Source: Paraburkholderia sp. D15
Lineage (GTDB): Bacteria; Pseudomonadota; Gammaproteobacteria; Burkholderiales; Burkholderiaceae
Length of the DNA: 64,000 nucleotides
Direction: 5' to 3'
NCBI RefSeq assembly: GCF_029910215.1
Contig: NZ_CP110396.1
Coordinates: 1,178,001 to 1,242,000, forward strand
The notes beneath the pieces were generated by a model. It ran no database searches, had not been told where the DNA came from, and saw nothing but the letters and a program-made list of their open reading frames with translations. Every line of letters starts with the position of its first letter. The stretch's first letter is position 1. Shown piece by piece: positions 5,329 through 56,736 of the stretch. Position numbers and translations under genes: made by a program.

Positions 5329-5927
5329 GCGTCGAACACGAAAGTGCTCTGTAGAGCGTTCTGATTTTTGATGTGGAGGTCGATGCCGAGCGCCGGGTTC
5401 TTCGATCGATAAGTCGGGGCCTTGCCGACGAACACCGGTGCACCCGGCACGGTCGAAAACACGGTGTCGGACAGCGTCGTCTGGCCACCGGTCGCGCCAA
5501 GATAAGGTTCGAGCTCGGCATAATAATCCGCGCCGATTTCGAGCTCGCCCTTGCCCGCGACCACGGTGAAGCGGATCGGCGCCCGCTCCACGGATACGAC
5601 CTGACCGATGAGCTTGGCGAGATCGGCAACCGGGCCGCCGGCCTGCCCGGTGTAGACCTTGAGGAGCGCGTCTTCCTGCGCTTTCGAGGCCTGGTCGCTG
5701 ATGAAGATCGCGGCGGTCCAGTTGCCTTGTAGGATATTGCCGGGTACGTGGGCGACAGCGGCGATGGTGTTGCCGGCGACATCGACGCCGTCCACCGTGC
5801 CCTTGTCGATGTGCCATGCGACGATGGTGTCGCAGGTTCCGTTGTCAGGGTCCTCGCCAATCCAGCAAGGACACAGCACCTTACAGTTGCAAACTTCGAG
5901 GAGACGACCTTCCAGGTGATAACTCAT
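5325..5927 (-). CDS. DUF1326 domain-containing protein
   Basis: Soluble protein of 200 residues. It begins MSYHLEGRLLEVCNCK; the motif CNCKVLCPCWIGED near residues 12-25 gives four closely spaced Cys, probably a metal or redox site. The core GxxGGPxxDLAKLIG region near residue 95 is also typical of the family. GGAGG precedes the chosen ATG; the ORF extends 20 residues further upstream but has no ribosome site there. First gene of the operon with DUF2182 and EamA. Confidence 0.85.
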   Translation of the reverse strand: MSYHLEGRLLEVCNCKVLCPCWIGEDPDNGTCDTIVAWHIDKGTVDGVDVAGNTIAAVAHVPGNILQGNWTAAIFISDQASKAQEDALLKVYTGQAGGPVADLAKLIGQVVSVERAPIRFTVVAGKGELEIGADYYAELEPYLGATGGQTTLSDTVFSTVPGAPVFVGKAPTYRSKNPALGIDLHIKNQNALQSTFVFDA

Positions 5928-21205: not shown

Positions 21206-24200
21206 ATGGCTCGCGCTCGCGATTCGAAACACGCCGAACTGCCCAACCTGCTGCCCGCCATGGGGGTATTCGTCGCCCTGGTGGGCGCCGGCATTATTCC
21301 CGTTTCCGCGTACGCGACCTGTGCGACGGCCGGCACCACGGTGAGTTGTTCCGGCCCCGCGAATCCGCTTTCGCCCAGCTATACGAACAGTGCGAACGAC
21401 GTGAACGTCACGATCAATCCGGGCGCAAGCCTCGGCGTGCTGCTCGGCGTGGGCGGTACGTCGATGACGCTGTCCGGCAGCAACGTCACCGTCACCAACA
21501 ACGGCCGGATCGATCCGACCGTGCTGGGCTCGAACCCGAACGTCCTGTCGGCGGGGCTCGTAGTCGGCAACACGACGGCCAGCGTGCAGTCCATCACCAA
21601 CAACGGCATTCTCGGCGGCACCACCGGTACGACACTCAGTCAGACCGGCATGGCGCTCGTGTCGCAGAACGCCACCGGCGGCATCACCAACATCACGAAT
21701 ACCGGCACGATGTCGACCGCGCCCATCTCCGGCGCCACCATGCTCGGCGCCGATGCGGGCGTGATGGTCGCGTACGGCGGCGCCGCGGTCACGGTCAACA
21801 ACTCGGGCACCATCACCGGGCGCGTCGGGCTGGCCACATCGGTCACCGGCAATATCTTTACGAACTCCGGCACCATCAACGGCAGCGTGTCGCTGGGCGC
21901 CGGTAGCACAAATCAATTCATCGCGACCACCGACTCCTCGGTGAACGCGGCGGGCGGTACTGCGACGTCGCAGAACCTGACCATCGGCGTGAGCACGGTC
22001 AATTTCGCGGCCACCGGCGTGGTGGACGGCGGCGCGGGCGGCAACAACACGCTGAGCCTGCAGATCGGCGTGTTGCCGACAGGCACGATCGACAACAACA
22101 ACTACATCGACTTCAATCATCTGGACGTGCAAAGCGGCACATGGACGCTCTCGGGCGCCTCGAGTGTCAGCGACGCGACGCTGGAAAACGGCGCGACCGC
22201 GCTCGTCGACAACGCCGCTTCGCTGGGCACCGGCACGATCAAGTCCAGCGGTGGCGCGATCCAGTCCCTGGTGCCGGGTATCACGCTGTCGAACAACATC
22301 GTTGTAACGGGTAATGGTCTTACCGTGGGCGGCAGCAACAGCCTTGGCCTGTCGGGCACGATTTCCGGCGGAGGCCAGCTCACCCAGTCGGGCAGCGGCA
22401 CGACGACCCTGTCGGGTGCCAACACGTATATCGGCGGCACCAACCTGTTCGCGGGCGAGATCGTCGTCGGCAACAACGCGGCGCTCGGCACCGGCGCGCT
22501 GACCGTCAGCGGCAACGCGACCCTCGACAATAATCAGAGCACCGCGCTCGCCAACCAGATCGCCATTAATACGGGCGTGACGCTGGCGCTCGGCGGCAGC
22601 AACGCGCTGACACTCGACGGCGTGATCAACGGAGCGGGCGGCATCGCGCAAAATGGTGCGGCGACCACCACGCTGGCCGGGGCCAACACGTTCACTGGCG
22701 GCACGACCATCAATAGCGGCACGCTCGCGCTCGGCGCGGGCGGCTCGCTGGCGGCGACGGGCGGCGTCAATCTCGCGAACGCGGGCGCCACGTTCGACAT
22801 CAGCGCCGCGGGCGCCAACCAGACGATCGGCGCGCTCTCCGGCGCGGCAGGCTCGTCGGTTGAGCTCGGCGCCAACTCGCTGTCGCTCGGCGACAGCAGC
22901 AATGCGACTTTCGGCGGCACGATCGGCGGCACCGGCGGCATCGTCAAACAGGGCACCGGCACCGAAATCCTCACGGGCTTCAATACCTACACCGGAGGCA
23001 CCACGATCAGCGGCGGCACGCTGGCGCTCGGCGCGGGCGGTGGCCTGGCGGCCGGCAGCCCGCTGACCCTCGACGCGACGGGCGCCACCTTCGACATCTC
23101 CACCGCGGGCGCCAACCAGACCGTTGGCGCGCTCTCGGGCGTGGCGGGCACTACGGTTGCACTGGGCGGCAATACGCTGGCGTTTGGCGATTCCACCAAT
23201 CAGATTTTCTCGGGCTCGTTCACCGGCACCGGCGGCATCGTCAAGCAGGGCACGGGCACCGAGACGCTCACGGGATCGAATAGCTTCACCGGCACCACCA
23301 CGATCAATGCCGGCACGCTGGCGTTATCGGGCGGCGGCAGCCTGTCGGACGTGAATCTGGCGAACGCGGGCGCGTCGCTCGACGTGAGCGGCGCGACCGC
23401 TTCCCCGACCATCGGCGCGCTGACCGGCGTTGCCGGCACCTCGGTTTCGCTCGGCCCGCAGACGCTCACTCTCGGTAGCACAAACAACGGGGTCTTCGAC
23501 GGCACGATCGGCGGCACCGGCGGCATCGTCAAAGCGGGCGGCGGCACACAGACGCTGACCGGCACGAACACCTATACCGGCGGCACGACCATCAACGGCG
23601 GCACGCTTGCGCTGTCCGGCAACGGCAGCCTCGCTGCCGGCGCCGGGGTCAACGTGGCCGGCAATGGCGCGAGCTTTAACATCAGCGGCGCCGTGGCCCC
23701 TCAGACGGTCGGCGCACTTTCCGGCGCGGCAGGCAGCACGGTGAGTATCGGCGGCAACTCGCTGACCTTCGGCGACGCGACGAACCAGACGCTCGCCAGT
23801 TCAGTGACCGGCACCGGCGGCCTCGTGAAGCAAGGCTCCGGCACCGAAACGCTCAGCGGCAACAACACCTACAGCGGCGGCACCACGATGAACGAGGGCG
23901 GTCTGGTGGTGGGCAGCAACACCGCCCTCGGCTCGGGCGCGCTGACGGTGAACGGCGCGTCCACCCTCGACAGCAATGCGGCCACTACGCTGGCCAACAA
24001 CGTCGTGCTGAACGCGGGCCTGACCGTCAACGGGACCCACGATCTGACGCTGAACGGCTCGATTTCCGGCACGGGCGGCCTGACCAAGGACGGCGGCGCC
24101 ACGCTCACGCTGAACGGCACCAACACCTACACCGGCGGCACTCAGGTCAACGCGGGCACGCTTGCGCTGGGCGCGAACGCCAGCCTCAACGCAAACGGCA

Positions 24201-27028
24201 CGGTCAATGTCGCCAGCGGTGCGGTGTTCGATCTGTCGGCCGGCAACGGCACGCAGACGTTCGGCACGCTGACGGGCTCGGGCACGGTCAACGTCGGCAC
24301 GAACGACCTGACGGTGGGCAGCGCGACCAACGGCACGTTCAGCGGCGGGATCGCCGGCACCGGCACGCTGACCAAGGTCGGGAGCGGCACGGAGACCCTG
24401 ACCGGTACGAATACGTTCACGGGCGGCACCACGATCAACGCGGGCACGCTGGCGATCGGCTCGGGCGGCAGCCTGGCGCCGACCGGCGGCGTGACGCTGG
24501 GCGCGGCGGGCACCAGCTTCGACATCAGCACGGCGGGTGCGAACCAGACGATCGGTGCGCTGTCGGGCGTGGCGGGCAGCACGGTGGCCATGGGCGGCAA
24601 TACGCTGACGTTCGGCGACAGTTCGAACCAGACTTTCGCGGGCACGCTCAGCGGCACTGCCGGCATCGTGAAGGCCGGCAACGGCACGGAAACGCTGACG
24701 GGCGCGAACACCTATACCGGCGGCACGACGATCAGCGCGGGCACGCTCGCGCTCAGCGGCGCGGGCAGTCTCGTGGCGGGCGGCGCGCTGAGTCTGACCG
24801 GCGCGGGCGCGACCTTCGACATGAGCAACGCGGCGGGCGACCAGACGTTCAGCGCGTTCTCCGGCGTAGCCGGCAGCACGGTTGCGCTCGGCGGCCATAC
24901 GCTGACTTTCGGCGACGCGACCAGCCAGACTTTCGCCGGCACGCTGAGCGGCTCGGGCGCGCTGATCAAGAACGGCGCTGGCGTCGAAACGCTTAGCGGC
25001 GCAAGCACCTATTCCGGCGGCACCACGCTCAACGGCGGCGGTCTCGTGCTCGGCACCAGCAGCTCGCTGGGCACCGGCACGCTGACGGTGAACAACGCCG
25101 CGACGCTCGATGCATCGACGGCCATCAACGTCGCGAACGCGATCGTGCTCAACGCGACGACCACCATCGGCGGCAGCGCGGACACGACGCTGTCGGGCAA
25201 CGTGTCGGGCACCGGCGGCCTGATCAAGAACGGCAACGCCGGGCTGACGCTCGGCGGCTCGAACACCTTCTCCGGCGGCACCACGGTGAACGCCGGCTCG
25301 CTCACGCTGGCCTCGGCGAACGCGCTCGGTACGGGCGGCCTGACGATGAACGGCGGTGCGCTGAACGTGGGTACCGGCGGCTCGGGTCAAGCGCTGCAAG
25401 TGAATTTCTCGTCGCTGGCCGGCGTGAATAACACCGCCATCAACCTGAGCAACGCCGCGCTCGGCGTGAGCGGCGCCGGCACCTTCGCCGGCACGATCAC
25501 GGGCAACGGTTCGCTGACGAAGAACGGCAACGGCCTGCTGATCCTCAACGGCGTGAACACCTACAGCGGCACGACCGAAGTGGTCGCGGGCGAACTCGAA
25601 GTCGGCGACATCAACCACCTGAACGCGCGCATCGCCGGCAATGCGCTGGTGGACAGCACGGGTACGCTGCGCGGTCACGGCACGGTGGCGGGCAACGTGA
25701 CGAACAACGGCACGGTGGCGCCGGGCGGCTCGATCGGCACGCTGAACGTCGGCGGCAACTACACGCAGGCCAGCAACGCGACGCTCGCCATCGAAGTGAG
25801 CCCGACCGCGGCGTCGCAACTGAACGTGACCGGCAGCGCGGCGCTGAGCGGCGCGCTGGCCGTGACCTTCGATCCGGGCACGTACACGGCGAAGCAGTAC
25901 ACGCTCGTGTCGGCCGCGGGCGGCGTGACGGGCAAGTTCACCAGCAGCGCGTTCAACGCGTCGTCGGGTGCGAATCTCGGCGCGTTGCAATCGTCGGTGT
26001 CGTACGGGGCGAATACGGTCGAACTGATGCTGGCCAACGCGCAGGGCACGCCGGGCGGCGGCACGGCGCCGACCGTGATCGCGCCGGTGAACACGAGCAT
26101 CTACACCGCGCAGGGCACGGCGGCGCTGCTCAACGCGCAGACCACCACGGCCGCGCTGCTCGGTCATTTGAGCGGTGCGGGTGCATCGGGCGTCGTGGGC
26201 GCAACGCCGGGCGCCGCGGCAGGCTGGATCAACGCGAGCGGGTCGCAGACGAAGGTCGGCGGCACGAATGGCGCACCGGGCTTCCAGGCGAATCAGTACG
26301 GTTTCCTCGCGGGCCTCGATCAGCGGATGGGTGACTACACGGTGGGCGTGGCGGCAGGCTATACGCACACGGATCTCGACGAACAGTCCACCGGCGACTC
26401 GGGCACGCAGGACACGTTGCGCGCCGCGCTGTACGCGAGCCGTCCGCTCGGGCCGGTGCAGGTGTCCGGCACGGTGAGCTATGGCGTCGACTTCCTGTCG
26501 CAGAAGCGGCCGTTCGCGGGTGTCGGTACGGCCGAGGGCGATCACGTCGGGCAGGAGTTCACGGCGGGCGCGCAGGCAAGCTTGCCGCTGACGCTGGGCA
26601 GCTTCGTGCTGACGCCGCTGGCGGGCTTGCGCTACGCGTATTTCCACGCGAACGGTTTCGGCGAAAGCGGCGCGGGCGGTCAGGATCTGCGCGTGGGCAC
26701 GGACAACGTCCACAGCCTGCAACCGTACGTGGGTGTCACGCTGGATCGCGCGTTCGGCGACGCATGGCGGCCGATGGCGGTGCAACTGCGGGTCGGTTAC
26801 GCGCATGAGGTGCTCGATGCGGGCCGCGCGGTCAGCGTCTCGGCACAGGACGGCACGTTGTTCACCGCGCCGGGTACGAGCTTGCCGCGTGGTTATCTGA
26901 CCACGGGCGTGAGCGTCAGCATGCAGCCGATGAAGAACCTGACCGTGTCGGTTGGGTACGATGCGTTGATCAATACGACACATGCGTCGGCGCAGCAGGG
27001 GACGGTGAAGGCGGAGTATCGGTTCTGA
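21206..27028 (+). CDS. Large autotransporter with PATR-type passenger repeats
   Basis: Type Va secreted protein of 1940 residues. Residues 1-37 form a signal peptide (hydrophobic core VFVALVGAGII, cleavage near SAYA). Residues about 40-1620 are the passenger, a beta-helix rich in Gly, Thr, Asn and Ala with twelve copies of an autotransporter-associated strand repeat whose core reads NTYTGGTTINxGTLALG. Residues about 1400-1620 include a GTLRGHGTVAGNVTNNGTVAPGG-like junction typical of passenger ends. Residues about 1673-1940 are the 12-strand beta-barrel, ending in EYRF with the terminal aromatic needed for outer-membrane insertion. GGGAGA precedes the ATG. No RGD or protease triad was noticed, so adhesion or aggregation is the best guess. 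Confidence 0.93.
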   Translation: MARARDSKHAELPNLLPAMGVFVALVGAGIIPVSAYATCATAGTTVSCSGPANPLSPSYTNSANDVNVTINPGASLGVLLGVGGTSMTLSGSNVTVTNNGRIDPTVLGSNPNVLSAGLVVGNTTASVQSITNNGILGGTTGTTLSQTGMALVSQNATGGITNITNTGTMSTAPISGATMLGADAGVMVAYGGAAVTVNNSGTITGRVGLATSVTGNIFTNSGTINGSVSLGAGSTNQFIATTDSSVNAAGGTATSQNLTIGVSTVNFAATGVVDGGAGGNNTLSLQIGVLPTGTIDNNNYIDFNHLDVQSGTWTLSGASSVSDATLENGATALVDNAASLGTGTIKSSGGAIQSLVPGITLSNNIVVTGNGLTVGGSNSLGLSGTISGGGQLTQSGSGTTTLSGANTYIGGTNLFAGEIVVGNNAALGTGALTVSGNATLDNNQSTALANQIAINTGVTLALGGSNALTLDGVINGAGGIAQNGAATTTLAGANTFTGGTTINSGTLALGAGGSLAATGGVNLANAGATFDISAAGANQTIGALSGAAGSSVELGANSLSLGDSSNATFGGTIGGTGGIVKQGTGTEILTGFNTYTGGTTISGGTLALGAGGGLAAGSPLTLDATGATFDISTAGANQTVGALSGVAGTTVALGGNTLAFGDSTNQIFSGSFTGTGGIVKQGTGTETLTGSNSFTGTTTINAGTLALSGGGSLSDVNLANAGASLDVSGATASPTIGALTGVAGTSVSLGPQTLTLGSTNNGVFDGTIGGTGGIVKAGGGTQTLTGTNTYTGGTTINGGTLALSGNGSLAAGAGVNVAGNGASFNISGAVAPQTVGALSGAAGSTVSIGGNSLTFGDATNQTLASSVTGTGGLVKQGSGTETLSGNNTYSGGTTMNEGGLVVGSNTALGSGALTVNGASTLDSNAATTLANNVVLNAGLTVNGTHDLTLNGSISGTGGLTKDGGATLTLNGTNTYTGGTQVNAGTLALGANASLNANGTVNVASGAVFDLSAGNGTQTFGTLTGSGTVNVGTNDLTVGSATNGTFSGGIAGTGTLTKVGSGTETLTGTNTFTGGTTINAGTLAIGSGGSLAPTGGVTLGAAGTSFDISTAGANQTIGALSGVAGSTVAMGGNTLTFGDSSNQTFAGTLSGTAGIVKAGNGTETLTGANTYTGGTTISAGTLALSGAGSLVAGGALSLTGAGATFDMSNAAGDQTFSAFSGVAGSTVALGGHTLTFGDATSQTFAGTLSGSGALIKNGAGVETLSGASTYSGGTTLNGGGLVLGTSSSLGTGTLTVNNAATLDASTAINVANAIVLNATTTIGGSADTTLSGNVSGTGGLIKNGNAGLTLGGSNTFSGGTTVNAGSLTLASANALGTGGLTMNGGALNVGTGGSGQALQVNFSSLAGVNNTAINLSNAALGVSGAGTFAGTITGNGSLTKNGNGLLILNGVNTYSGTTEVVAGELEVGDINHLNARIAGNALVDSTGTLRGHGTVAGNVTNNGTVAPGGSIGTLNVGGNYTQASNATLAIEVSPTAASQLNVTGSAALSGALAVTFDPGTYTAKQYTLVSAAGGVTGKFTSSAFNASSGANLGALQSSVSYGANTVELMLANAQGTPGGGTAPTVIAPVNTSIYTAQGTAALLNAQTTTAALLGHLSGAGASGVVGATPGAAAGWINASGSQTKVGGTNGAPGFQANQYGFLAGLDQRMGDYTVGVAAGYTHTDLDEQSTGDSGTQDTLRAALYASRPLGPVQVSGTVSYGVDFLSQKRPFAGVGTAEGDHVGQEFTAGAQASLPLTLGSFVLTPLAGLRYAYFHANGFGESGAGGQDLRVGTDNVHSLQPYVGVTLDRAFGDAWRPMAVQLRVGYAHEVLDAGRAVSVSAQDGTLFTAPGTSLPRGYLTTGVSVSMQPMKNLTVSVGYDALINTTHASAQQGTVKAEYRF
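22390..25620 (+). repeat. Twelve internal repeats of the autotransporter passenger
   Basis: The DNA encoding the passenger contains twelve imperfect repeat units, about 200-310 bases each, all centred on codons for NTxxGGTT followed by GTLALG or a variant. First core near 22420, last near 25555. Units 2-5, 8 and 9 are the most similar, with near-identical GGxGGIVKQGTGTE and TFDIS...GANQTIGALSG segments, which suggests recent duplication or gene conversion. Confidence 0.85.
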
Positions 27029-47629: not shown

Positions 47630-48001
47630 ATGACAAGCGTCTTATTGGTGGATGATGACGTCGAAGCGCTCGCGGCATGGCGCGCGGTATGCGAGGCAGA
47701 TGGGTACGACGTCCGGAGCGCGACGAATGGGCGAGACGCGCTGGCAAGCTTTGCCGGCTCTCCCGTCGACATCGTGGTTGCAGACTGGCGCATGCCCATC
47801 ATGTCGGGCAGCGAGTTGTGTCACCAGTTACGCACCGCGCCGGGACTCGCCGACGTCGCATTCGTTCTGGTCTCGGGAGAGCCGAGCCCGCCGGCGTTCG
47901 TGAGTTACGACGCGTTTCTGCGCAAGCCCGTGGAAGGTGCCGAGCTTCTCACGACCATGCGCCGACTGCTGATGGACAAGGTCGGGCACCGGTCGCGATA
48001 G
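47630..48001 (+). CDS. Single-domain response regulator
   Basis: Protein of 123 residues, a CheY-like receiver with acidic pair D9-D10, phospho-acceptor D52 in ADWRMP, switch Ser82 in LVSGE and Lys99 in FLRKP. It shares DWRMP and FLRKP with the receiver at 43547 and is probably a paralogue. No kinase or output domain is nearby. Confidence 0.88.
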   Translation: MTSVLLVDDDVEALAAWRAVCEADGYDVRSATNGRDALASFAGSPVDIVVADWRMPIMSGSELCHQLRTAPGLADVAFVLVSGEPSPPAFVSYDAFLRKPVEGAELLTTMRRLLMDKVGHRSR

Positions 48002-48021
48002 ACGTCACGTCGTCGCTTCAG

Positions 48022-48056
48022 TTATCCCCAGTTTTTGTTCGCAAGCCTGTGGATAA
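48022..48056. other. Inverted pair of DnaA-box-like sequences
   Basis: TTATCCCCA at 48022-48030 (one mismatch to the DnaA box) and TGTGGATAA at 48048-48056 (perfect box on the opposite strand) face each other between convergent genes. Could be a DnaA binding spot or chance. Confidence 0.3.
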
Positions 48057-48075
48057 CCTTCCCACAACCGCGGCA

Positions 48076-48106
48076 ACCGCTTGATCCAATTACCTTATCA
48101 AGCGGT
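48076..48106. terminator. Hairpin between convergent genes
   Basis: A ten-base-pair stem (ACCGCTTGAT with ATCAAGCGGT) around an 11-base loop, between the response regulator and cbtA genes. No T-run follows on either strand, so termination is plausible rather than certain. Confidence 0.4.
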
Positions 48107-48126
48107 GCGCGCGGTATGCCACCTGC

Positions 48127-48858
48127 CTAGATCGCCGCGCGCCGGACCGGCCGCACGAAAGCGCTGCGCTCGACCAGCGCGCCGAACAACAGTCCGATCG
48201 TGGTCCACATAATGACCTGCATGCCGATCGCCGCTACGCGGAATTTCCACAGCAGCACGGCGGGGAAGGCCGCGGGCACTTCGTTGATCACCGGCATCGA
48301 CAGCTGCACGGCCGCGATAATCGCGACGAACAGCACGCCTGCCACGATCGATCCATTCCATGCGCCGAGCTGCACGGCCAGACGTCGACGCACTTTCAGC
48401 GAGAACACCATCGCCGCGACGGAAATCGCGATCATCAGAAAGAACAACCCGGTGCGCATGCCGATCGTTTCGGGGTCACCGACCGATGGCGGATTCGCCG
48501 GATACTTGATGTTCGGCACGATCACCAGTGCGATGAACGCCGCGAGCGCGAGCCAGGCGGACAGAGCCCGCGCACTCGCCGCGCCGACCCGGCCATACGC
48601 ATACGCGAACACCAGCGAGAACAGCCCGCCCACTGCCGCGCCGTACGTCACCACGCCGGTGAGCAGACCCAAACCGGCCTGGGTCTCGCGGCTCACGATT
48701 TCCGGTTCGGGCGCTTCGCCTTTAGCGGCATCGGCTTTCTCCTCGAAGGAGATCGCCTGATCGACCTGCGGTTCGCCGACCACGCGGGCGAAACCGAACG
48801 TGAGCAATCCCGCGGCGATGCCTGCGAGCATCCCGCGTACCAACAATTTACCGACCAT
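48127..48858 (-). CDS. cbtA: CbtA-family cobalt transporter subunit
   Basis: Inner-membrane protein of 243 residues with about six hydrophobic segments. It starts MVGKLLVRGMLAGIAAGLLTFGFARVVGEP, as CbtA proteins do, has ISFEE then an ETQAGLGLLTG block, and IKYPANPPSVGDPETIG near residue 115. CbtA and CbtB are predicted to import cobalt for cobalamin synthesis. It follows cbtB by 11 bases and shares the upstream cobalamin riboswitch. Confidence 0.92.
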   Translation of the reverse strand: MVGKLLVRGMLAGIAAGLLTFGFARVVGEPQVDQAISFEEKADAAKGEAPEPEIVSRETQAGLGLLTGVVTYGAAVGGLFSLVFAYAYGRVGAASARALSAWLALAAFIALVIVPNIKYPANPPSVGDPETIGMRTGLFFLMIAISVAAMVFSLKVRRRLAVQLGAWNGSIVAGVLFVAIIAAVQLSMPVINEVPAAFPAVLLWKFRVAAIGMQVIMWTTIGLLFGALVERSAFVRPVRRAAI

Positions 48859-48869
48859 GTTCGACTCCG

Positions 48870-49091
48870 TTAGTGGCAGGGAAAGCCGAGCAGATGGCGG
48901 CCGTCGTGCACGAACTCATGGACGTACATGCCGGGCACGAGCGACGTGGCGCCCTCTTCCGCACCCACGAAGTAAATGGCGAGCAACAGCAGCAGGCCGC
49001 CGAACACGATCCACGGCAGCAATTCGCGCAACGGAATCGGCGTGGGTTGCGCAACGGGCGCATTGGCGGAATCGAATACAGCTTGGGTCAT
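48870..49091 (-). CDS. cbtB: CbtB-family protein, cobalt transporter subunit
   Basis: Protein of 73 residues with one membrane segment (about residues 24-42) and a C-terminal metal-site tail, HEFVHDGRHLLGFPCH, the hallmark of CbtB. The ATG at 49091 has AGGAG nine bases upstream; an ATG three codons earlier abuts that site and is unlikely. Works with CbtA. Confidence 0.92.
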   Translation of the reverse strand: MTQAVFDSANAPVAQPTPIPLRELLPWIVFGGLLLLLAIYFVGAEEGATSLVPGMYVHEFVHDGRHLLGFPCH

Positions 49092-49139
49092 GAATGACAT
49101 CTCCTGGGGTAACGCGCCCCGATAGTCGATAGCAAAGGG

Positions 49140-49232
49140 AGTGCGCAAAGCTCGGGTCTGGCTGTTGGCAGAAGAAGCCAATTACAGTGGCGCGACCGCG
49201 CCGGGTTCTCACCGGCTTCCGTGCTTCGCAAC
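49140..49232 (-). promoter_or_regulatory. Cobalamin riboswitch upstream of cbtB
   Basis: On the minus strand the order is GAAGCACGGAAGCCGGTGAG, then a GC stem, then GCGCCACTGTAA (the B12-box core GCCACTG) and finally GCCAGACCCG, which is the conserved layout of the cobalamin element. It lies in the leader of cbtB-cbtA. A TAGAAT -10 box sits just upstream at 49239-49244. High adenosylcobalamin is expected to shut expression down by a terminator or by masking the ribosome site; a CGGGGCGCG/ACCCC helix near 49110-49130 could do the latter. Confidence 0.9.
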
Positions 49233-49345
49233 GCCGCTATTCTACGCGCTAAACTTTCGCGTTCGATAACCGGTAAGTGCGTGCGCCGCATGGGCGCTGG
49301 GCGCTGGGCGCTGGGCATCGATGTAGCTTCGAGGGATTCAACGGA

Positions 49346-49954
49346 ATGGACATTCGGCTTTTATTGATCAGTCACGCGTCGACCGCCGCGATGCGCGCGG
49401 GCCGTTTCCCCGGCGATGTGTCGTTCGACTCGCTCGATCAGCGCAGCATTGCCGAAATCGATGCCACACGTGCGCATCTTTCGATTCCGGGTGATGCCAG
49501 CGCGTTGGTCAGCCCGGCGCTCTGCGCACGTGCAACGGCGCAGGCGCTGAAGCTCGCGGCAATCGTCGATGCCAATCTGGCCGATGTGAATTACGGTGCG
49601 TGGCAGGGTCGGCGTCTCGCCGATCTGCTGACCGAAGCGCCGCAAGAACTCGGGGCATGGATGCATGATCCCGACGCCAAGCCTCATGGCGGTGAGTCGT
49701 TCAGCCAACTCGTCAAGCGCGTGGGCGCGTGGCTCGATTCGCTCAGCGATCCGGCAAGCCAACGGACGCTCGACGATAAGAACAAGCTTCGTACTATCGT
49801 CGCGGTCACTCACGCGCCGGTCATGCGGGCGGCGATCGTCGTGGCGCTCGGTGCTGCTGCGCAGGTGTTCCCGCGCATCGAGATCGCGCCGCTGTCGATC
49901 ATCGAATTGCGCTGCTCGCGGCGAGGCTGGACGTGGTGGCCGGCAGTCGGCTAG
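49346..49954 (+). CDS. Histidine phosphatase family protein with altered C-terminus
   Basis: Protein of 202 residues of the phosphoglycerate-mutase-like fold. The phospho-accepting His is in LISHAST, where the usual RHG has Ser in place of Arg; NYGAWQGR near residue 77, HGGESF near 115 and VTHAPVMRA near 155 (second His) are present. Homologues sit beside cobalamin genes, where CobC removes a phosphate from alpha-ribazole phosphate. The end of the gene overlaps one copy of a 72-bp repeat; its last residues (WWPAVG) come from the inserted DNA, whereas the distal copy would read WWPALQPVP. Divergent from cbtB. Confidence 0.85.
   Translation: MDIRLLLISHASTAAMRAGRFPGDVSFDSLDQRSIAEIDATRAHLSIPGDASALVSPALCARATAQALKLAAIVDANLADVNYGAWQGRRLADLLTEAPQELGAWMHDPDAKPHGGESFSQLVKRVGAWLDSLSDPASQRTLDDKNKLRTIVAVTHAPVMRAAIVVALGAAAQVFPRIEIAPLSIIELRCSRRGWTWWPAVG
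49873..49944. repeat. 72-bp direct repeat, copy 1 (attL-like)
   Basis: Identical over 72 bases to 53617-53688. This copy is the 3' end of the histidine phosphatase gene. The flanks differ on both sides of each copy. It marks one end of the insert carrying the KAP NTPase. Confidence 0.9.
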
Positions 49955-49985
49955 CGGCGACGCGTTGGCCCCCCCCTCGTCCCCG

Positions 49986-50231
49986 CTATCGCCCTTTCCC
50001 GCGAGGCTTGAATTCCAGTTCAGGTGGTGCGATGTCGGGGTGCGCTTCGTAGAGCGGTTCGAGAGCCAGAACATACACCTGGTCGAGTAGTTGACCCATT
50101 GCCCGACGAAACGCTTTGAATTCGTCGGCAGGGCAGCTTTCTTGCACCAGAATAATCGCGTCGTTAATTGCTCCACTGACGCCGAGAAACCGGTTGCTCA
50201 GATCTGATGCAATCTCAGGATTTTTGATCAT
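49986..50231 (-). CDS. Small protein of unknown function
   Basis: Protein of 81 residues, soluble, with a helical middle (DEFKAFRRAMGQLLDQVYVLALE) and a basic C-terminus. AAAGGAA precedes the ATG and overlaps the stop region of the upstream Cys-rich gene nine bases away, so the two form an operon. Family not recognised. Confidence 0.6.
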   Translation of the reverse strand: MIKNPEIASDLSNRFLGVSGAINDAIILVQESCPADEFKAFRRAMGQLLDQVYVLALEPLYEAHPDIAPPELEFKPRGKGR

Positions 50232-50240
50232 GACGTTCCT

Positions 50241-50471
50241 TTAACATCCGTTGTCCGCGATGCATTTGTTTTTGCATCTAAAAAAGGGGATTCCAGTTCC
50301 ACCTCGTGTCGGAAGCTCCGTTTCCGTGCAGTAGTCGATGCACTTTTGATATACCTTGCGGCATCGGTTGGTCGTCGCGCACTTTACAAATCCCGGGTCC
50401 GAATCTCCGTTGGTTGCAAACAGTTGCGCATACAACACCGCGCGCTTTGATTGACCATTCTGGTCGGGCAT
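50241..50471 (-). CDS. Small Cys-rich protein, possibly frameshifted at its start
   Basis: 76 residues with six Cys in CATTNRCRKVYQKC-like spacing, then CTETE, RCKNKC and a terminal Cys, suggesting disulfides or a metal site. No signal peptide. The ATG at 50471 lacks a ribosome site, and the DNA upstream is open in another frame from MATKDSNAGTG at 50520; a run of five T at about 50470-50474 joins the two, and one T fewer would give a continuous protein of about 92 residues. It may be a frameshifted gene, a sequencing error or a true short gene. Confidence 0.5.
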   Translation of the reverse strand: MPDQNGQSKRAVLYAQLFATNGDSDPGFVKCATTNRCRKVYQKCIDYCTETELPTRGGTGIPFFRCKNKCIADNGC

Positions 50472-50639
50472 AAAAATTGGAAAACGAACCTGTTCCTGCG
50501 TTACTATCTTTCGTCGCCATATTTGGCATCCGCGACGCTATTTGGATCAGTATGGCTAAACAACTTGCAACGATAGATTAAAGTGTCCGGCATCAATAAC
50601 AGACCCGGTGCCCAAACATATTTTATCTGAGAGAGTGTG

Positions 50640-53438
50640 ATGACTCGAACACCGACCCTTCTTCTGGATGAGCCATCGAACGTCGATGACTTGGGCGGAG
50701 CACACGCAAGGATTGCAACGACGATATCGAAGCTCGTCCTGACATCCCCTGGCGGGCAAACAATTAGGCTCGACGGCACGTGGGGAGCCGGAAAATCGAC
50801 CGTCGTGAAGATCGTCGCCGAGCAGTTGGAGCATTCTGCCCCCAAAAAGCCTGGCAAAGAGGTATTGCAATCGCCTGACGTCGCAGTTTTCCAGTACGAC
50901 GCGTGGGTGCACGTCGGCGATCCGCTTCGTCGTGCATTTCTATCAGCGCTTGTACAAAAACTCACTGAACGAAAATGGTTAGAAAATTCCGATGGCACGG
51001 CGAGTGAGTCTCTCTGGACGAAAAGGCTAGATCAACTGAGTCGACGGCTCAAAACAACGTCTCGGAAGACAACCCCATTCTTCTCCAACTCCGCCAAGGT
51101 AATTTTGTCGGCGCTTGCGGCGCTAGGCATTGCTGCACCGATGTTGGCGGAGCTCGAAAAACGTCTAATCGAACCGCTCGGAGTTGCACCACTTCTGGCC
51201 TCGACTGCGCTGACAGGCTTCGTAGCTTTCGCATTGTTTCATCTGCTTTCCAACGAAGCCATGGGCTTTATCATCCGACGCAATTCGGATGAGGAAGCTG
51301 TCGAAGTTCGGGACGACCCGGAGCCGACTTCCATCGAGTTCCAAGATGCGTTCGGTGAACTGATGCAGGTCATCCTTGAGCAAGACAACCGTCGCCTCGT
51401 CATAGTCATAGACAATCTCGACCGCATTGACCAAGCCGATACGAAAGCAGTGTGGGCACTTCTCCGTTCGTTCCTCGACAATCCCCAGTTCAAATCACAT
51501 GAGTGGCTCCGTCGATTATGGGTGCTCATACCAGTGGCGGACGAAGGGCGAGTGCTTCAGTCATCCACGCCTGCCTCGGCTGTATCAGCGAAAGACCCTG
51601 CTCCGTCATCGTTCCTCGAAAAGGTTTTCCAGCTACGATTTTCCTTGCCGCCACCGATGCTTCATTCGTGGAAAAACTACTTTAACGGAAAGCTGGTGCA
51701 GGCATTCGGGGAAGACTTGCTTGGTGATTACGATGAAATTTTGCGGCTCTATGAAGAGCTACCGCTCTCGGCTAGTCTGACTCCCCGAGCAATCGTGTCG
51801 TTTGTCAACGAACTTGTCTTGTTAAAGATTGAGTGGTCCGACAAAGTATCCCTATCCAGTCTGGCGGCGTACCTTCTCTCGAAGGAAAAGCTCCTCGCGG
51901 ACAGTTGTGTTCCGCCGACGGAGGTAACTCGAATTCTTCGCGAAGAGTCTCTAGCCGATACGTTCGCCATGCTGCACCATCATGCATCAACGAAAGAGGA
52001 GGCTTCCTACATTTCTGTTCGTCCAAGGCTTGAAGCCGCTCTGGACAATGGAGACAGCGAAGCGTTAAGTCGGCTGTTTCAGGAAAGCCCTGCTTTCCAA
52101 TTCGTTCTCGACCGATATATTCGGCAGGACCTAAGTGCTCTCCAGGGGCAACAGGAACGCTTGCTGCAAGCTGTAAGGGCGATTTGCCCCTTGGCAATAG
52201 CGGAAGACGGTACGCAGCTCAAGCACAAACCGCTGACGGCGGGAACGATGCTTCATTTTCGTCAGGTGGCCTTGTCGACCATGGCTGCTTCAAAAAGCTT
52301 GCGGTTGCTCAATGAAAATCTTGTGTCTGGTCTACAAGCCCTACTGGACATCTCGTCGTCTCGCGAACAGACGGCTATGCTGATTGTCGAGATGCTCAGA
52401 AACATCGTTGCAACTGCGGATGACCAACCAGACCCATTAACTAAGCAAATTGCTGTGGCGTGGGAAGCATGGACCTCTTCGCTTGGTGGCGTACTTTCAA
52501 TATCGGAGGTGCACTCAGCAATAACAGCGGAAGGGGCGGAGCAGATTGCGTTGCCGGTTGGTGCCGAACTGTGGGCTCGACTCTGCCAAGAGACCAGGCA
52601 CACTGAGCGTTCTTGGATTTTGACTTGCTGTACGTGTAGAGGTGGCGAAGACGCGAAACTGACTTGGCTTAGGACTCGATTCGAATCCGAAAAGATGGAA
52701 ACTGCTGCGGTCGCACTCCTTAAGCAAGCTATGGAAACAGGAGAGGAACACTTCTTCGACGCTATCGCTGAAGGCATCGTTAAGAAACAAGTCCACGCCT
52801 ATAAGATTTCTTCCTGGGGAAGCGACGACTATTTAATACCATCCCTCGCGGCATTGTTTAGTCTCGACCGTTTGCGCTTAAAGCCATACCTGCGTAGGCT
52901 AGTCGATAGTGGTGAGTTGTTCAGAGTGTTCGGCACGTCGACTCCAACAAGCGATTGGAAGTCGGCCGTGCTAATTTATTTTATAGTATTCGCGACCGAC
53001 GGCATGCTGAAGACTGAGATAACGGCCTTTCTCGGCGGAAAGGAGTCCGTTGATGGTCTGCAATTTGTGACGCGGCTGGTCGAAGGAAAGATTGGGCTAA
53101 ATACCGATCAAGTTCGAAACTTTGTGGAGGTGCTCGACACCCTTGCAGTCTACGAAGTGCTGCAGTTGTTAGCGACAGGTTGGGGTAACAAGGGGCTGAT
53201 AACCTCCCTTGTGCCAGCACTAGCTTTAAGCGAGCGATTTATTTATTACATCCGTGCACAGGGTGACTTCAAAACCGAGTTGATAGCCTTTGCGAACAAG
53301 TACGTGATCGATCCACAGTTACGTCATCAGTTTGTCGAATCGGCGCTTTCGACCGAAGAATCAACGGCCGCACAAAAATCATTTGGCGACGAGAGCATCT
53401 TAATCGAACGGTTGCGGGAAGTGCAGATTCCCGCGTGA
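50640..53438 (+). CDS. KAP-family P-loop NTPase
   Basis: Protein of 932 residues with reduced GC. The Walker A loop GTWGAGKST is at 46-54; YDAWVHVGDPLRRAF at 86-100 is the KAP W-containing motif; two hydrophobic segments (about 152-170 and 184-203) sit between Walker A and Walker B, a signature of KAP NTPases; Walker B is RLVIVIDNLDRID (252-264; D258, D261). Residues about 400-932 are a long, mostly helical C-terminal region without a recognised family. KAP members include F-plasmid PifA and QatA of the Qat defence system. No qatBCD genes are near, so this is a solitary member. GTG at 50637 is an alternative start. Confidence 0.85.
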   Translation: MTRTPTLLLDEPSNVDDLGGAHARIATTISKLVLTSPGGQTIRLDGTWGAGKSTVVKIVAEQLEHSAPKKPGKEVLQSPDVAVFQYDAWVHVGDPLRRAFLSALVQKLTERKWLENSDGTASESLWTKRLDQLSRRLKTTSRKTTPFFSNSAKVILSALAALGIAAPMLAELEKRLIEPLGVAPLLASTALTGFVAFALFHLLSNEAMGFIIRRNSDEEAVEVRDDPEPTSIEFQDAFGELMQVILEQDNRRLVIVIDNLDRIDQADTKAVWALLRSFLDNPQFKSHEWLRRLWVLIPVADEGRVLQSSTPASAVSAKDPAPSSFLEKVFQLRFSLPPPMLHSWKNYFNGKLVQAFGEDLLGDYDEILRLYEELPLSASLTPRAIVSFVNELVLLKIEWSDKVSLSSLAAYLLSKEKLLADSCVPPTEVTRILREESLADTFAMLHHHASTKEEASYISVRPRLEAALDNGDSEALSRLFQESPAFQFVLDRYIRQDLSALQGQQERLLQAVRAICPLAIAEDGTQLKHKPLTAGTMLHFRQVALSTMAASKSLRLLNENLVSGLQALLDISSSREQTAMLIVEMLRNIVATADDQPDPLTKQIAVAWEAWTSSLGGVLSISEVHSAITAEGAEQIALPVGAELWARLCQETRHTERSWILTCCTCRGGEDAKLTWLRTRFESEKMETAAVALLKQAMETGEEHFFDAIAEGIVKKQVHAYKISSWGSDDYLIPSLAALFSLDRLRLKPYLRRLVDSGELFRVFGTSTPTSDWKSAVLIYFIVFATDGMLKTEITAFLGGKESVDGLQFVTRLVEGKIGLNTDQVRNFVEVLDTLAVYEVLQLLATGWGNKGLITSLVPALALSERFIYYIRAQGDFKTELIAFANKYVIDPQLRHQFVESALSTEESTAAQKSFGDESILIERLREVQIPA

Positions 53439-53512
53439 GAACCCGAGGTGACAAGCAGCCCATTCACCTACGCGACTAGCGGTGATGGGGAGCTTTTCCA
53501 TACCGGAGCACG

Positions 53513-53616
53513 TCACTTGTTGGCGAACACCGTGAACCGAGCATAGGCCTTAGGATTTACGCGCTTTCCACCCTGCACGAGCCACAGCGGATTCGTGCCG
53601 ACGAAGAAAGGGAAAA
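53513..53616 (-). pseudogene. Gene remnant cut by the distal repeat
   Basis: A minus-strand frame of about 33 codons ending in TGA at 53513 reads protein-like (FFVGTNPLWLVQGGKR, then AYARFTVFANK) and runs exactly to the edge of the 72-bp repeat, with no start codon. It is best seen as the C-terminal end of a lost gene. Family not recognised. Confidence 0.45.
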
Positions 53617-53688
53617 CAGCGCATCGAGATCGCGCCGCTGTCGATCATCGAATTGCGCTGCTCGCGGCGAGGCTGGACGTGGTGGCCG
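53617..53688. repeat. 72-bp direct repeat, copy 2 (attR-like)
   Basis: Identical to 49873-49944. Here the repeat is not part of an intact gene, but its reading frame continues in the following DNA to WWPALQPVP and a stop at about 53710, which is probably the original end of the histidine phosphatase gene. Confidence 0.9.
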
Positions 53689-53718
53689 GCGTTACAGCCT
53701 GTTCCTTGACTCACGCCC

Positions 53719-54159
53719 TCACTTCCCCGACACCACCAGCCGCAGCTTGTTCGACCCCGTCGGCGACAGCGTGATCTCGGTTCGCTTACCCGGCGCGCCG
53801 ACATAAAAGTGCTGGCGTCCCGGCGAATTCTGATCGTGCGTCGCTTCGGGCAAACATGACGCGATGTCCGCCGCCACCGCCTGAAGCGCATCCGCGTTCG
53901 ATCCCGCGTCGTGATGCGGCGTCCACATGCATTGATAGCTGCCACGGGCGGCCGAACATTGCGCGTCGTCGCCATAGGGCTGCGCGACGCCTTTCCCGTC
54001 GTCGGGCGTCAGCGAAGACAAGCCGCCTGGCGCGGCGGCCACGATGCGTTTGAGCGACGCGCACGGGCTGGGCGCATCGTCGGCGAATGCGCTGCAGGGC
54101 AGCATGGTGCTTAGCGTTGCGACGGCCAGCGTGGCCGCGAAGAGTCGGGTCCGGTTCAT
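53719..54159 (-). CDS. Exported protein of unknown function
   Basis: Protein of 146 residues with a signal peptide (about 1-26, ending SAFA) and four Cys in the mature part. It ends with a strand-rich region (EITLSPTGSNKLRLVVSGK). No family recognised. It stands alone, 142 bases upstream of the end of the hydrolase gene on the same strand. Confidence 0.65.
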   Translation of the reverse strand: MNRTRLFAATLAVATLSTMLPCSAFADDAPSPCASLKRIVAAAPGGLSSLTPDDGKGVAQPYGDDAQCSAARGSYQCMWTPHHDAGSNADALQAVAADIASCLPEATHDQNSPGRQHFYVGAPGKRTEITLSPTGSNKLRLVVSGK

Positions 54160-54301
54160 GGGCGCAGTCCTTCAGTCATTGAATGCCTGAGAAAGAGGCG
54201 CGCGAATGGAAAACCATTCACGGGCCCTAGCGCGGTAGCAGTCTCCGTGCCCATCGTCGTGCGCTCCGTCCGTTCCGTGCCATCGCAATGCATTGAAGCC
54301 G

Positions 54302-55333
54302 CTACCGCTGTCCAGTGCCGAACAAGGCCTCCCGCCCCCGCGCCGACGTGAAGATCCCACCCGCGTCATGCCCGACGCCATCGATCACGAACGTCCTGTG
54401 CGTCGATAATCCCCGCGGATGCCGCGACGCCATATAGCGCGCGTAAGCAAGCCCCCGCTCCAGCCGATGCGCCCCTTGCGCACGCGCCGCGCAAGACCGG
54501 TCGAGCGCCGGATGCTGCGGATCGCAATCCGCGCCGCCCAGCAGCACGGTGACATCACGTTGCACGTAACGCGCTTCGAGCTTTTCCGTCATGGCGTCGT
54601 CTATCGTACCGCTCGCGCCGGCATCCTTCGCATACGCCGGCAAATGCTCCAACCCATACTTCCAGCGATTGAACGACGAACACGACGCCGCATCGAACGC
54701 GACAAACTCGCCGCGCGCATCCGGCCGCATCGCATCGAAATACACATACGACGACGGATTCGCGACGACGTAACGCAGCGCGACGCCCCGCGCCGTCAGC
54801 AACGCATCGCCGCGCGCGACGACCGCGTATCGCTGCACGACCTGGCCGCCGCCCGAATGCCCTGCGATCACCACGTCGGTCAATGCGCCGAACTGCTCGC
54901 GCGAAGCGAGCGTGTGCAAAATCGCGTCGAGCACGTCGAACGAACTGAGCGGCGCCGGACCTTGGGAGTTGTCGCCGCCCATCCAGCCGGTCCAGTCCCA
55001 ATGCAACGTGGACGACGGCAACGCATGCGCATCGAGATCCGCGCTCGCGAGAAACTGCGGCACGATCAGCAGCGTATCGTCCGCGCTCGCCCCGGCCGAC
55101 TCGCACGCGCGCTGCGCCAACTCGAAGTACGTATCGCCGTTGCGCAAACGTCCATGAATCAGAATCACCACACGCCGCACCGTCGGCGCCGGCGCGAGCC
55201 AGTCACCGTTCGCGAACACCGGCACCGTGCCGCTGCCGGCCGGCGTCGAGACCTGCAGATAACGGCTCGCGACGACCGCGACCGGGCGTTCATTCGGCGC
55301 GCGTTCGTCGTCCATGATCGAAGGCTGGGTCAT
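54302..55333 (-). CDS. Alpha/beta hydrolase, cytoplasmic paralogue
   Basis: Protein of 343 residues with an alpha/beta hydrolase core: VVILIHGRLRNGD (about 55-67), the nucleophile elbow GHSGGG (S160), and a C-terminal GVGHD with the catalytic His. No signal peptide. It shares GHSGGGQVVQRYAV, YFDAMRPDA-like and RWKYGLEHLP-type segments with the hydrolase at 56733, so they are paralogues. Together they frame the transporter gene. Substrate unknown, probably an ester. Confidence 0.85.
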   Translation of the reverse strand: MTQPSIMDDERAPNERPVAVVASRYLQVSTPAGSGTVPVFANGDWLAPAPTVRRVVILIHGRLRNGDTYFELAQRACESAGASADDTLLIVPQFLASADLDAHALPSSTLHWDWTGWMGGDNSQGPAPLSSFDVLDAILHTLASREQFGALTDVVIAGHSGGGQVVQRYAVVARGDALLTARGVALRYVVANPSSYVYFDAMRPDARGEFVAFDAASCSSFNRWKYGLEHLPAYAKDAGASGTIDDAMTEKLEARYVQRDVTVLLGGADCDPQHPALDRSCAARAQGAHRLERGLAYARYMASRHPRGLSTHRTFVIDGVGHDAGGIFTSARGREALFGTGQR

Positions 55334-55371
55334 GCAATAAGCTCGTGGTTGATTTCGTGGTTCATCGACAT

Positions 55372-56736
55372 CTAGTGCGTGACGACGCTCGCCGCCGCGC
55401 CGCGCGGTTCACGACCAGCGCGCGTGAAATACACCATGGCCAGCGACACGAACCCCGCGAATATCAGGTAAAACGCCGGCGTCAGACTGCTGCCCGTCAC
55501 CCGCGTCAAGCCCGTGATGGTAAGCGGCGCCATGCCGCCGAACAGCGTCACCGCGATGTTGTACGACAGTGCCACGCCCGCCGAACGGCTACGCACCGGG
55601 AACAGTGTCGCGAGCATGCCGGGATGCGCGCCGGACATCGCCGCGAGAAACACGGTGGCGATCATCTGCGCGATGAACAGATGGCCCGGCGTCGGATCGG
55701 TGACGACGAAGCGATACAGCGGATACACGCAGATAATCCACGCGATCACGACCGGATAGAACAACCGGTACGCACCGTAGCGATCGGCGAGCTTGCCCGA
55801 CAGCGGAAACAGAAACAGATTCAGCACGCCCGACACGAACGCGCCGAGCAACGCGGTGGAGAGCGGCAGATGCAGTTGCCGTTCGACATACACCGACAGA
55901 TACGAGTGCCACACATAGTTCGTTGCCGCTCCGACGATGATCACGCCCATCGCGCAGATCGCTGCATCGCCGTTGTCGTGGAAAAACTGGCGGATGGTCA
56001 CGCGAGGCGGCTTGTCCTGATGTTCGAGCAGTTGCTCGAACTCCGGCGACTCGGCCACGCGGTGCCGGATATAGAAACCGAACGGTCCCGCCAGCGCGCC
56101 GAACAGAAACGGCAGACGCCACCCCCAGGCCACCAGTTGCTCATGCGTCAACTGCGTGGTCAGCAGATAACCGACACCGGACGACAGCAGCAACGCGAAC
56201 GCCTGCGCCGACATGTTGAAGCTGCCGTAGAACATCTTCTTGTGCGGCGGCGCGTACTCCACAAGCATCGCCGACGCGGTCGCGAACTGGCCGCCCACCG
56301 AGAGCCCTTGCAGCAACCGCGCGAGTACCACCAGCAGCGGCGCCGCGATGCCGATATGCGCGTAACCCGGCGTCAAGCCCATCAGCAAGGTGCTGGCCGC
56401 CATCGAAATGATCAGCAGCGACAGCGCCTTGCGGCGCCCCGCGCGATCCGCGTAAATGCCGAGCAGAATGCCGCCGATCGGCCGCACGATGAAGCCGACC
56501 GCGAACGTGGCAAGCGTCAGCATGATCGACACGAAGCCGCTGCCGCCCGGAAAGAACACCTGCGCGATGATCTTCGCGAAGTAGCCGTAGATCAGAAAGT
56601 CGAACCATTCGAGGCCGTTGCCGAGCACGGACGCGAAGATCGCGCGACGCACCATCGCCGGGCTCAATGCGCTCGACGGATCGGCGCCCGGGCGCGCACC
56701 GCCATTGCCTTGCTTGAGAGTCGTCGCTTCGCTCAT
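55372..56736 (-). CDS. MHS-type MFS transporter (organic-acid/proton symport)
   Basis: Protein of 454 residues with twelve hydrophobic segments in the metabolite:H+ symporter layout: GNGLEWFDFLIYGYFAKIIAQVFFP near the start, FIVRPIGGILLGIYADRAGRRKAL (signature) near 85-108, and RLLQGLSVGGQ. MHS proteins import organic acids such as citrate, ketoglutarate or shikimate. Start at 56736 overlaps the stop of the upstream hydrolase gene by ATGA, so translation is coupled. Likely imports what the paired hydrolases release. Confidence 0.9.
   Translation of the reverse strand: MSEATTLKQGNGGARPGADPSSALSPAMVRRAIFASVLGNGLEWFDFLIYGYFAKIIAQVFFPGGSGFVSIMLTLATFAVGFIVRPIGGILLGIYADRAGRRKALSLLIISMAASTLLMGLTPGYAHIGIAAPLLVVLARLLQGLSVGGQFATASAMLVEYAPPHKKMFYGSFNMSAQAFALLLSSGVGYLLTTQLTHEQLVAWGWRLPFLFGALAGPFGFYIRHRVAESPEFEQLLEHQDKPPRVTIRQFFHDNGDAAICAMGVIIVGAATNYVWHSYLSVYVERQLHLPLSTALLGAFVSGVLNLFLFPLSGKLADRYGAYRLFYPVVIAWIICVYPLYRFVVTDPTPGHLFIAQMIATVFLAAMSGAHPGMLATLFPVRSRSAGVALSYNIAVTLFGGMAPLTITGLTRVTGSSLTPAFYLIFAGFVSLAMVYFTRAGREPRGAAASVVTH

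Follow-up and report, generated by a model that had tools for sequence, protein, structure and literature searches.

The locus described here lies in a 64,000-nt stretch of the Paraburkholderia sp. D15 genome (NZ_CP110396.1, positions 1,178,001 to 1,242,000 of the forward strand), referred to below as the window, which sits within a 3.34-Mb contig of an 8.3-Mb genome. An intact cobC-like gene encoding a 202-aa histidine phosphatase is found on the plus strand at 49346-49954 and ends with a TAG stop codon (49952-49954). The original prediction had called the gene at this point a phosphatase, and the protein does belong to the His_Phos_1 family (PF00300, 2.5e-26); among NCBIfam models it matches best to one for RNase H/acid phosphatase and to that for CobC alpha-ribazole phosphatase, in both cases under cut-off. 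The minus strand carries a cobalamin riboswitch at 49132-49274, and CbtA/CbtB genes are annotated in similar DNA of plasmid records, which bears out the cobalt-cluster setting assumed earlier. ARAGORN detected no tRNA gene in the window. Tandem repeats with a 297-bp period, possibly belonging to a gene for a large repetitive surface protein, were seen at 22702-25034.

A perfect 72-bp direct repeat borders DNA of lower GC content

The in-frame end of cobC lies in a 72-bp segment (49873-49944, plus strand) that occurs again, in the same orientation, at 53619-53690. The two copies show no differences across their 72 positions, and identity ends at both borders without extending by a single base. 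In 50 base shuffles of positions 48000-56000, the longest exact direct repeat had a mean length of 12.2 bp and a maximum of at most 17 bp. The perfect 72-bp repeat that had been predicted is real and its left coordinates were right; the right copy had been placed 2 bp off, at 53617-53688, where the DNA is not identical to the left copy. An in-frame stop codon, read by eye, follows each copy. No third copy was found among the best 40 of 167 first-look candidates in the genome (8,325,170 bases in 3 contigs; E ≤ 0.001), so that the repeat is not dispersed and the general repeat family held out earlier as an alternative does not apply.

The DNA enclosed by the repeats (49945-53618) has a GC content of 0.523 as compared to 0.639 for the 10 kb on each side, a difference that agrees with the lower GC content noted earlier. 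The range among 264 other segments of the same size in the 64 kb is 0.538-0.698. Beyond the right repeat copy, a right tail of 28 nt (53691-53718) leads up to a gene for a 146-aa protein on the minus strand (53719-54159), which forms the right border of the insert.

The insert carries remains of an Rhs module

The left end of the enclosed DNA is a 41-nt tail (49945-49985) that holds the cobC stop codon and 3' flank, and the insertion boundary probably lies within it. Next to it, on the minus strand, is orfA (49986-50231; 81 aa), which directly follows an orphan Rhs C-terminal tip of 89 aa (50241-50510, minus strand, with the 89 residues themselves encoded at 50244-50510) and whose relatives follow Rhs genes; it can be described as immunity-like. 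In three loci (L174, L175 and L176) a gene 68-75% identical to orfA lies directly after an intact Rhs gene of 784-791 aa. The one intact Rhs protein tested, of 784 aa from L174, has RHS_repeat and DUF6531 domains (Pfam), and the orphan tip is 78% identical to its residues 696-784. An open reading frame at 50241-50471 corresponds to the same tip reading from its first ATG. Relatives of orfA were found in 26 of 144 genomes of the genus, this genome included. In some loci they stand in tandem groups, as in immunity-gene arrays (G179:C1:3835353-3837557, G162:C69 (L179), G105:C2 (L177) and G017:C352).

A second Rhs piece lies in the opposite orientation. Comparison with Rhs proteins places this decayed N-terminal fragment, covering approximately residues 119-151 and interrupted by an in-frame stop, at 50493-50591 on the plus strand. 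A complete Rhs gene with core repeats is absent from the insert, which holds just the 89-aa tip and this inverted fragment of 33 codons. The two pieces differ in their divergence. The tip is at the usual distance from its relatives, with 62-81% identity to five of them as compared to 60-92% among those five, whereas the N-terminal piece has 54-64% identity to five relatives that share 25-31 of 33 residues (76-94%) with each other. This divergence, together with the in-frame stop, suggests that enough time had passed since the Rhs gene broke for it to decay. Two further Rhs genes are present in the same genome (G000:C2:1791129-1793126 and 481266-483476; L209 and L210), with 54% and 44% identity to the intact relative of the broken gene. 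They were considered as the origin of the Rhs pieces and set aside, the N-terminal fragment having no DNA match to either locus.

The main gene of the insert encodes a KAP P-loop NTPase

Most of the insert is taken up by a gene on the plus strand (50637-53438) for a protein of 932 aa from the ATG at 50640. The KAP_NTPase domain is recognized well above the Pfam cut-off (PF07693, 1.1e-24; 87.6 bits against a cut-off of 20), and both Walker A (GTWGAGKST) and Walker B (VIVIDNLDRID) motifs are present. Two putative membrane segments, assigned by hydropathy only, lie between the two motifs (residues 154-172 and 182-203). The PADLOC PifA profile matches with 5.3e-14, the best stretch being limited to residues 24-169, and the QatA model gives 40.5 bits against an NCBIfam cut-off of 600. 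Among solved structures, no relative of the protein was found beyond a weak and short P-loop match (E 0.0075).

Relatives of the KAP protein numbered 158 at E ≤ 0.001 among 7999 scored candidates, the named ones among the closest matches being from Paraburkholderia, Burkholderia and Caballeronia; 23 relatives could be aligned at 44-69% identity. The gene is sporadic. It was seen in 10 of 146 relatives at E ≤ 0.001, mostly with weak matches, and in 8 of 398 genomes of the family at E ≤ 1e-20, this genome being included in both counts. At four other KAP loci, six of eight neighbours tested match PADLOC models, which belong to the named systems DrmMI, LmuB and DruC and to the candidate systems PDC-S37 (twice) and PDC-M65B; the other two match none. 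The accessible text of PMC11846954 describes Tmn as a KAP NTPase that inhibits several phages and has a pair of unusual transmembrane domains; that of PMC9122126 does not mention it. The KAP gene of the insert is a candidate, and probably acts on its own as a defence against phages in the manner of PifA and Tmn.

Some KAP loci elsewhere have features of their own. Two of them (L193:5563-9570 and L190:1559-5566) share a nearby gene for a 1335-aa protein, the L190 copy of which matches PF20698 (TPR-GreAB-C-PIN) and no PADLOC model. Another KAP relative lies beside a short ORF of the phage integrase family (L206:7641-8144; 167 aa, PF00589 1.2e-12). In Burkholderia paludis (L189, 7733-12778), a KAP relative of 50% GC stands directly behind a gene of 65% GC, and the contig ends 133 bp further on. 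The 65% GC gene resembles glmS, the classic landing place of Tn7.

To the right of the KAP gene lies an interior segment of 180 bp (53439-53618). A 34-aa open stretch at 53516-53617 on the minus strand was considered as a gene fragment, but gave no Pfam or phage match and a single plasmid match at E 0.4.

Relatives have a single repeat copy behind cobC

The end of cobC was searched for in 144 genomes of the genus and matched in 96, this genome included. From the 95 other matching genomes 60 loci were taken, comprising nearly all of the strongest matches; none is from a strain of the same species. All 60 loci have a single copy of the repeat (3.8-15.1 kb examined downstream), and the flanking gene order is kept in many of them. 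The gene for the 146-aa protein is a near neighbour of the cobC end, at 24-163 bp, in 43 loci; it is cut and overlaps the position in one more (L079) and was not found at the position after cobC in the other 16. A CobC protein match was missing from one locus (L131). The comparison with relatives that had been proposed for this site thus reveals, in 43 of the 60, cobC close to the 146-aa gene with one repeat copy. Empty sites exist, and the outcome named earlier as fatal to an insertion, the same arrangement everywhere, did not occur.

Whether cobC arrived together with the insert was assessed by comparing its identity to relatives with that of the relatives among themselves, in four classes of CbtA distance. 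The identities, each against the median of the relatives, were 65.0 against 67.8, 68.3 against 70.2, 68.5 against 72.2 and 67.5 against 79.5. All four values are below the median, yet each is inside the 10-90% range; in the closest class (n=3) the value of 67.5 stands at the lower edge of a range of 67.4-86.1. There is no clear sign that cobC was imported with the insert, although its identity to relatives sits low within the range usual for the gene, and we take the gene to be native.

The left flank, and not the right, resembles the region behind cobC

If the two copies were an att pair, a target-site duplication or the product of a Campbell-type crossover, the right tail would be the native one. 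The tails were aligned to the spacers between cobC and the 146-aa gene of the 43 relatives, and of the ten nearest relatives, and the scores compared with those of 500 shuffles. The left tail starts AGTCGGCTAG and the right tail starts GTTACAGCC. For the left tail, shuffles scored as well in 0/500 cases over the first 14 nt and in 4/500 over 28 nt (0/500 and 1/500 for the ten nearest relatives). For the right tail the corresponding values were 134/500 and 148/500 (407/500 and 371/500 for the ten nearest), and it is not detectably like the 3' flank of cobC. A first-14 score as low as that of the right tail was obtained by 3 of the 43 relatives (7%), and one as low as that of the left tail by 40%. 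An earlier form of the test, with 60 tails and 200 shuffles, gave 1/200 for the left and 103/200 for the right tail over 21 nt; at full length neither was significant (41/200 for the 41-nt left tail and 50/200 for the 28-nt right tail).

The right tail was also anchored at the next gene. In that position it shows weak similarity to the spacer ends near this gene over the 43 relatives (24/500) but not over the nearest ten (148/500), and its last 14 nt are not similar (90/500, and 102/500 for the nearest ten). With the left tail anchored at the wrong end as a control, the counts were 174/500 over all relatives and 20/500, also a high similarity, for the nearest ten. In all, 14-41 nt were used and 18 variants of the test were tried. 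The length of the right spacer, 28 nt, is within the range of the relatives, where four close relatives have 56-59 nt and others 28, so that spacer length offers mixed evidence on which copy is native. From the flank alignments we take the left copy to be the undisturbed gene end, still joined to its flank; the right one would be an additional, partial copy of the end of cobC.

Neither a recombinase nor a related element was detected

Profile searches gave no integrase match among the three ORFs of the insert, in agreement with the earlier statement that no integrase remains, and Pfam and NCBIfam gave no transposase match among them. Seven inverted pairs were found, none of which joins the ends of the insert. 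Larger relatives that still carry an integrase had been suggested as a place to look, and none with the same ends was found: searches of the 143 other genomes of the genus and of plasmid records detected no DNA sharing the ends of the insert. The left part of the insert has DNA matches in 7 of these 143 genomes, one of them of only 28 nt; the five matches that reach the end of orfA start at orfA or close to it, 29-49 nt inward from the repeat boundary, and so stop short of the repeat. The right part, including the 180-bp interior segment, has one weak DNA match among the 143.

Five plasmid records have distant KAP-domain matches, none covering 80%; at the DNA level, plasmid records gave no match to the element. 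Phage sequences gave no match to the element or its parts, and in viral contigs neither the repeat nor a relative of KAP or CobC was found. None of the 60 related loci has a second repeat copy at the site (within the 3.8-15.1 kb examined), and nothing therefore indicates an integrase family that uses it. Searches of open PMC text brought up neither a description of this insert nor an instance of integration at cobC.

Discussion

The results demonstrate that cobC in this lineage remained intact while DNA with foreign composition came to lie behind it. The insert itself is an ordinary kind of gene acquisition. The reading that we put forward, tentatively and at somewhat less than even confidence, is a recent, recombination-type insertion behind cobC through which the 72-bp gene end came to be present twice. 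A foreign and already decayed 3.7-kb piece of DNA would have entered the short spacer behind cobC recently, bringing the gene for a membrane P-loop NTPase of the KAP type together with what is left of an Rhs toxin-immunity module, and would have carried no recombinase of its own. Most likely this was a recombination or end-joining event during which repair by the cell copied the last 72 bp of cobC again at the right junction. The Rhs debris is decayed but the 72-bp copies have no differences, which suggests that the DNA was probably already wrecked, and already without an integrase, when it landed; the insertion is apparently recent, as judged from 72 bases. It would have been tolerated because cobC stayed whole. 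The repeat would permit a RecA-type deletion back to a single copy. A direct duplication left by an insertion without an integrase has a precedent in PMC3240628, although a single crossover was the route there.

Several points stand against this reading. According to the accessible text of PMC3240628, homology-facilitated illegitimate recombination generally leaves a deletion and not a duplication. An integrase, too, would produce a perfect 72-bp repeat at the end of a gene. The comparison of left and right flanks rests on few bases (14-41 nt) and many variants, and with the full 41-nt left tail it gave 41/200. On balance the repeat is somewhat more readily seen as something that the insertion left behind than as two integrase sites. 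The original prediction had described an integrated element bounded by attL and attR. Its acquired insert and missing integrase both stand, and relatives do have an empty site with one copy; the identification of the repeats as attL and attR is not supported as stated, the right tail not being cobC-like and a second copy being absent from the 60 relatives.

The main rival, which we consider rather unlikely, is a remnant like a CIME. Site-specific integration at the 3' end of cobC, with a recombinase acting in trans or since lost, would have produced repeats equal to attL and attR, and the element would have supplied a replacement gene end at the left. Perfect 72-bp repeats at the 3' end of a gene are the classic form of att sites. 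Foreign GC content, defence-like and toxin-immunity cargo, interior wreckage and the in-frame stop that can be read behind both copies fit as well, and so does the definition of a CIME in the accessible text of PMC5704250, in which integration and transfer genes are lost and attL and attR are kept. However, the right tail should then be the native end of the gene and is not cobC-like, 0/60 relatives have a second copy at the site, and searches of the 143 other genomes and of plasmid records detected no DNA with these ends.

A RecA-dependent single crossover appears improbable. A circularised donor fragment with the end of cobC beside the cargo would have recombined into the resident cobC, giving direct repeats without an integrase, and the donor would have supplied the cobC-like left tail as the flank of its gene. 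Such events have a precedent in E. coli conjugation, where a duplication PCR product was obtained from 56 of 60 Lac-minus clones and the 14 sequenced were duplications of 109-950 bp attributed to a single crossover with a shortened circle, as far as the accessible text of PMC3240628 reports; 72 bp also exceeds the 30-bp RecA threshold cited in the accessible part of PMC2884548. The model requires a donor in which the cargo already lay beside cobC, which none of the 60 relatives shows. It also requires that the right tail be native and cobC-like, which it is not, and an identity of 72/72 calls for a donor almost the same in sequence, although the two tails are entirely different.

It could further be supposed that single KAP NTPase defence genes spread in Burkholderiaceae as minimal, recombinase-free mobile units, each landing with a direct duplication of 45-242 bp of target DNA. 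If true, the KAP gene or a helper in trans would represent a new way of spreading defence genes, but we regard this as very unlikely. Direct repeats were sought within 1.5 kb on both sides of 14 KAP loci, 13 of them testable. Bracketing repeats were found at 4 of the 13 (3 of 12 without the window), as compared to 0/159 control blocks of the same loci and 1/325 elsewhere; Fisher's test for the KAP loci without the window gave P 2.7e-4, a value that is generous because the control blocks overlap each other. Numerically, bracketing repeats would seem to be a property of KAP loci, but two of the other three cases looked ordinary on inspection. In L180 the right copy is also present in homologous loci where the KAP gene has no DNA match, and the copies lie over a region read as a lipoprotein signal, and in L192 the repeat is part of a serine-recombinase gene. 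All three other repeats are imperfect (85-88%), and nine KAP loci have none. The third case is in Paraburkholderia tagetis (L193), where 242-bp direct repeats of 85% identity (1129-1368 and 5166-5405) bracket the KAP gene; the stop codon of this gene falls within the right copy, and a terminator-like hairpin can be seen by eye in both copies.

An assembly artefact, for which nothing speaks other than the existence of an exact repeat, can practically be dismissed, the locus lying in a 3.34-Mb contig and the insert differing from its surroundings in GC content, which together with the single genomic copy of its left part argues against a collapsed duplication.

The insertion with a copied gene end, which remains our preferred reading, makes the locus an example of how repeats with the look of a classic att pair may be something else: the flank evidence puts the normal gene end at the left copy. 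Decayed cargo between undecayed repeats allows the order of events to be argued, and suggests that the putative defence DNA arrived without an integrase of its own. The KAP gene is in addition a candidate single-gene anti-phage system.

Comparison with known systems

The absence of transposase matches and of terminal inverted repeats sets the insert apart from transposons and insertion sequences, and the absence of an integrase match sets it apart from integrative elements and genomic islands that carry their own. It resembles a CIME in lacking integration and transfer genes, in having direct repeats at both ends and in its position at the 3' end of a gene. In contrast to a CIME, no related integrase-bearing element and no other use of the site were found, and the right repeat of the insert has no native-like gene flank.

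Small variable segments, in the accessible text of PMC2884548, are likewise short acquired segments without a recombinase. There, repeats flank 10-18% of the segments and homologous or illegitimate recombination is speculated for more than half of the loci, those not otherwise explained. The flanking repeats are mostly (66-94%) shorter than 30 bp, whereas that of the insert is 72 bp long and perfect. The single-crossover insertions in the accessible text of PMC3240628 also need no integrase, and the homologous end may become duplicated in direct orientation; the difference is that a donor with the cargo beside cobC was not seen here, and that the illegitimate route proper usually leaves a deletion.

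The cargo has likenesses of its own. Orphan Rhs tips and immunity genes, as in the analogous T6SS arrays of PMC5361080 (accessible text), share with the insert a C-terminal tip and a downstream immunity-like gene left from a toxin module; the tip of the insert differs in being displaced from the body of the Rhs gene and in lying beside an inverted N-terminal piece and a KAP gene. With Tmn and PifA the predicted protein shares a KAP P-loop NTPase domain with two putative membrane segments inside it and a partial match to the PADLOC PifA profile. It differs in the restriction of that match to a stretch near the N-terminus and in its long C-terminal part, and the likeness to Tmn is one of description.
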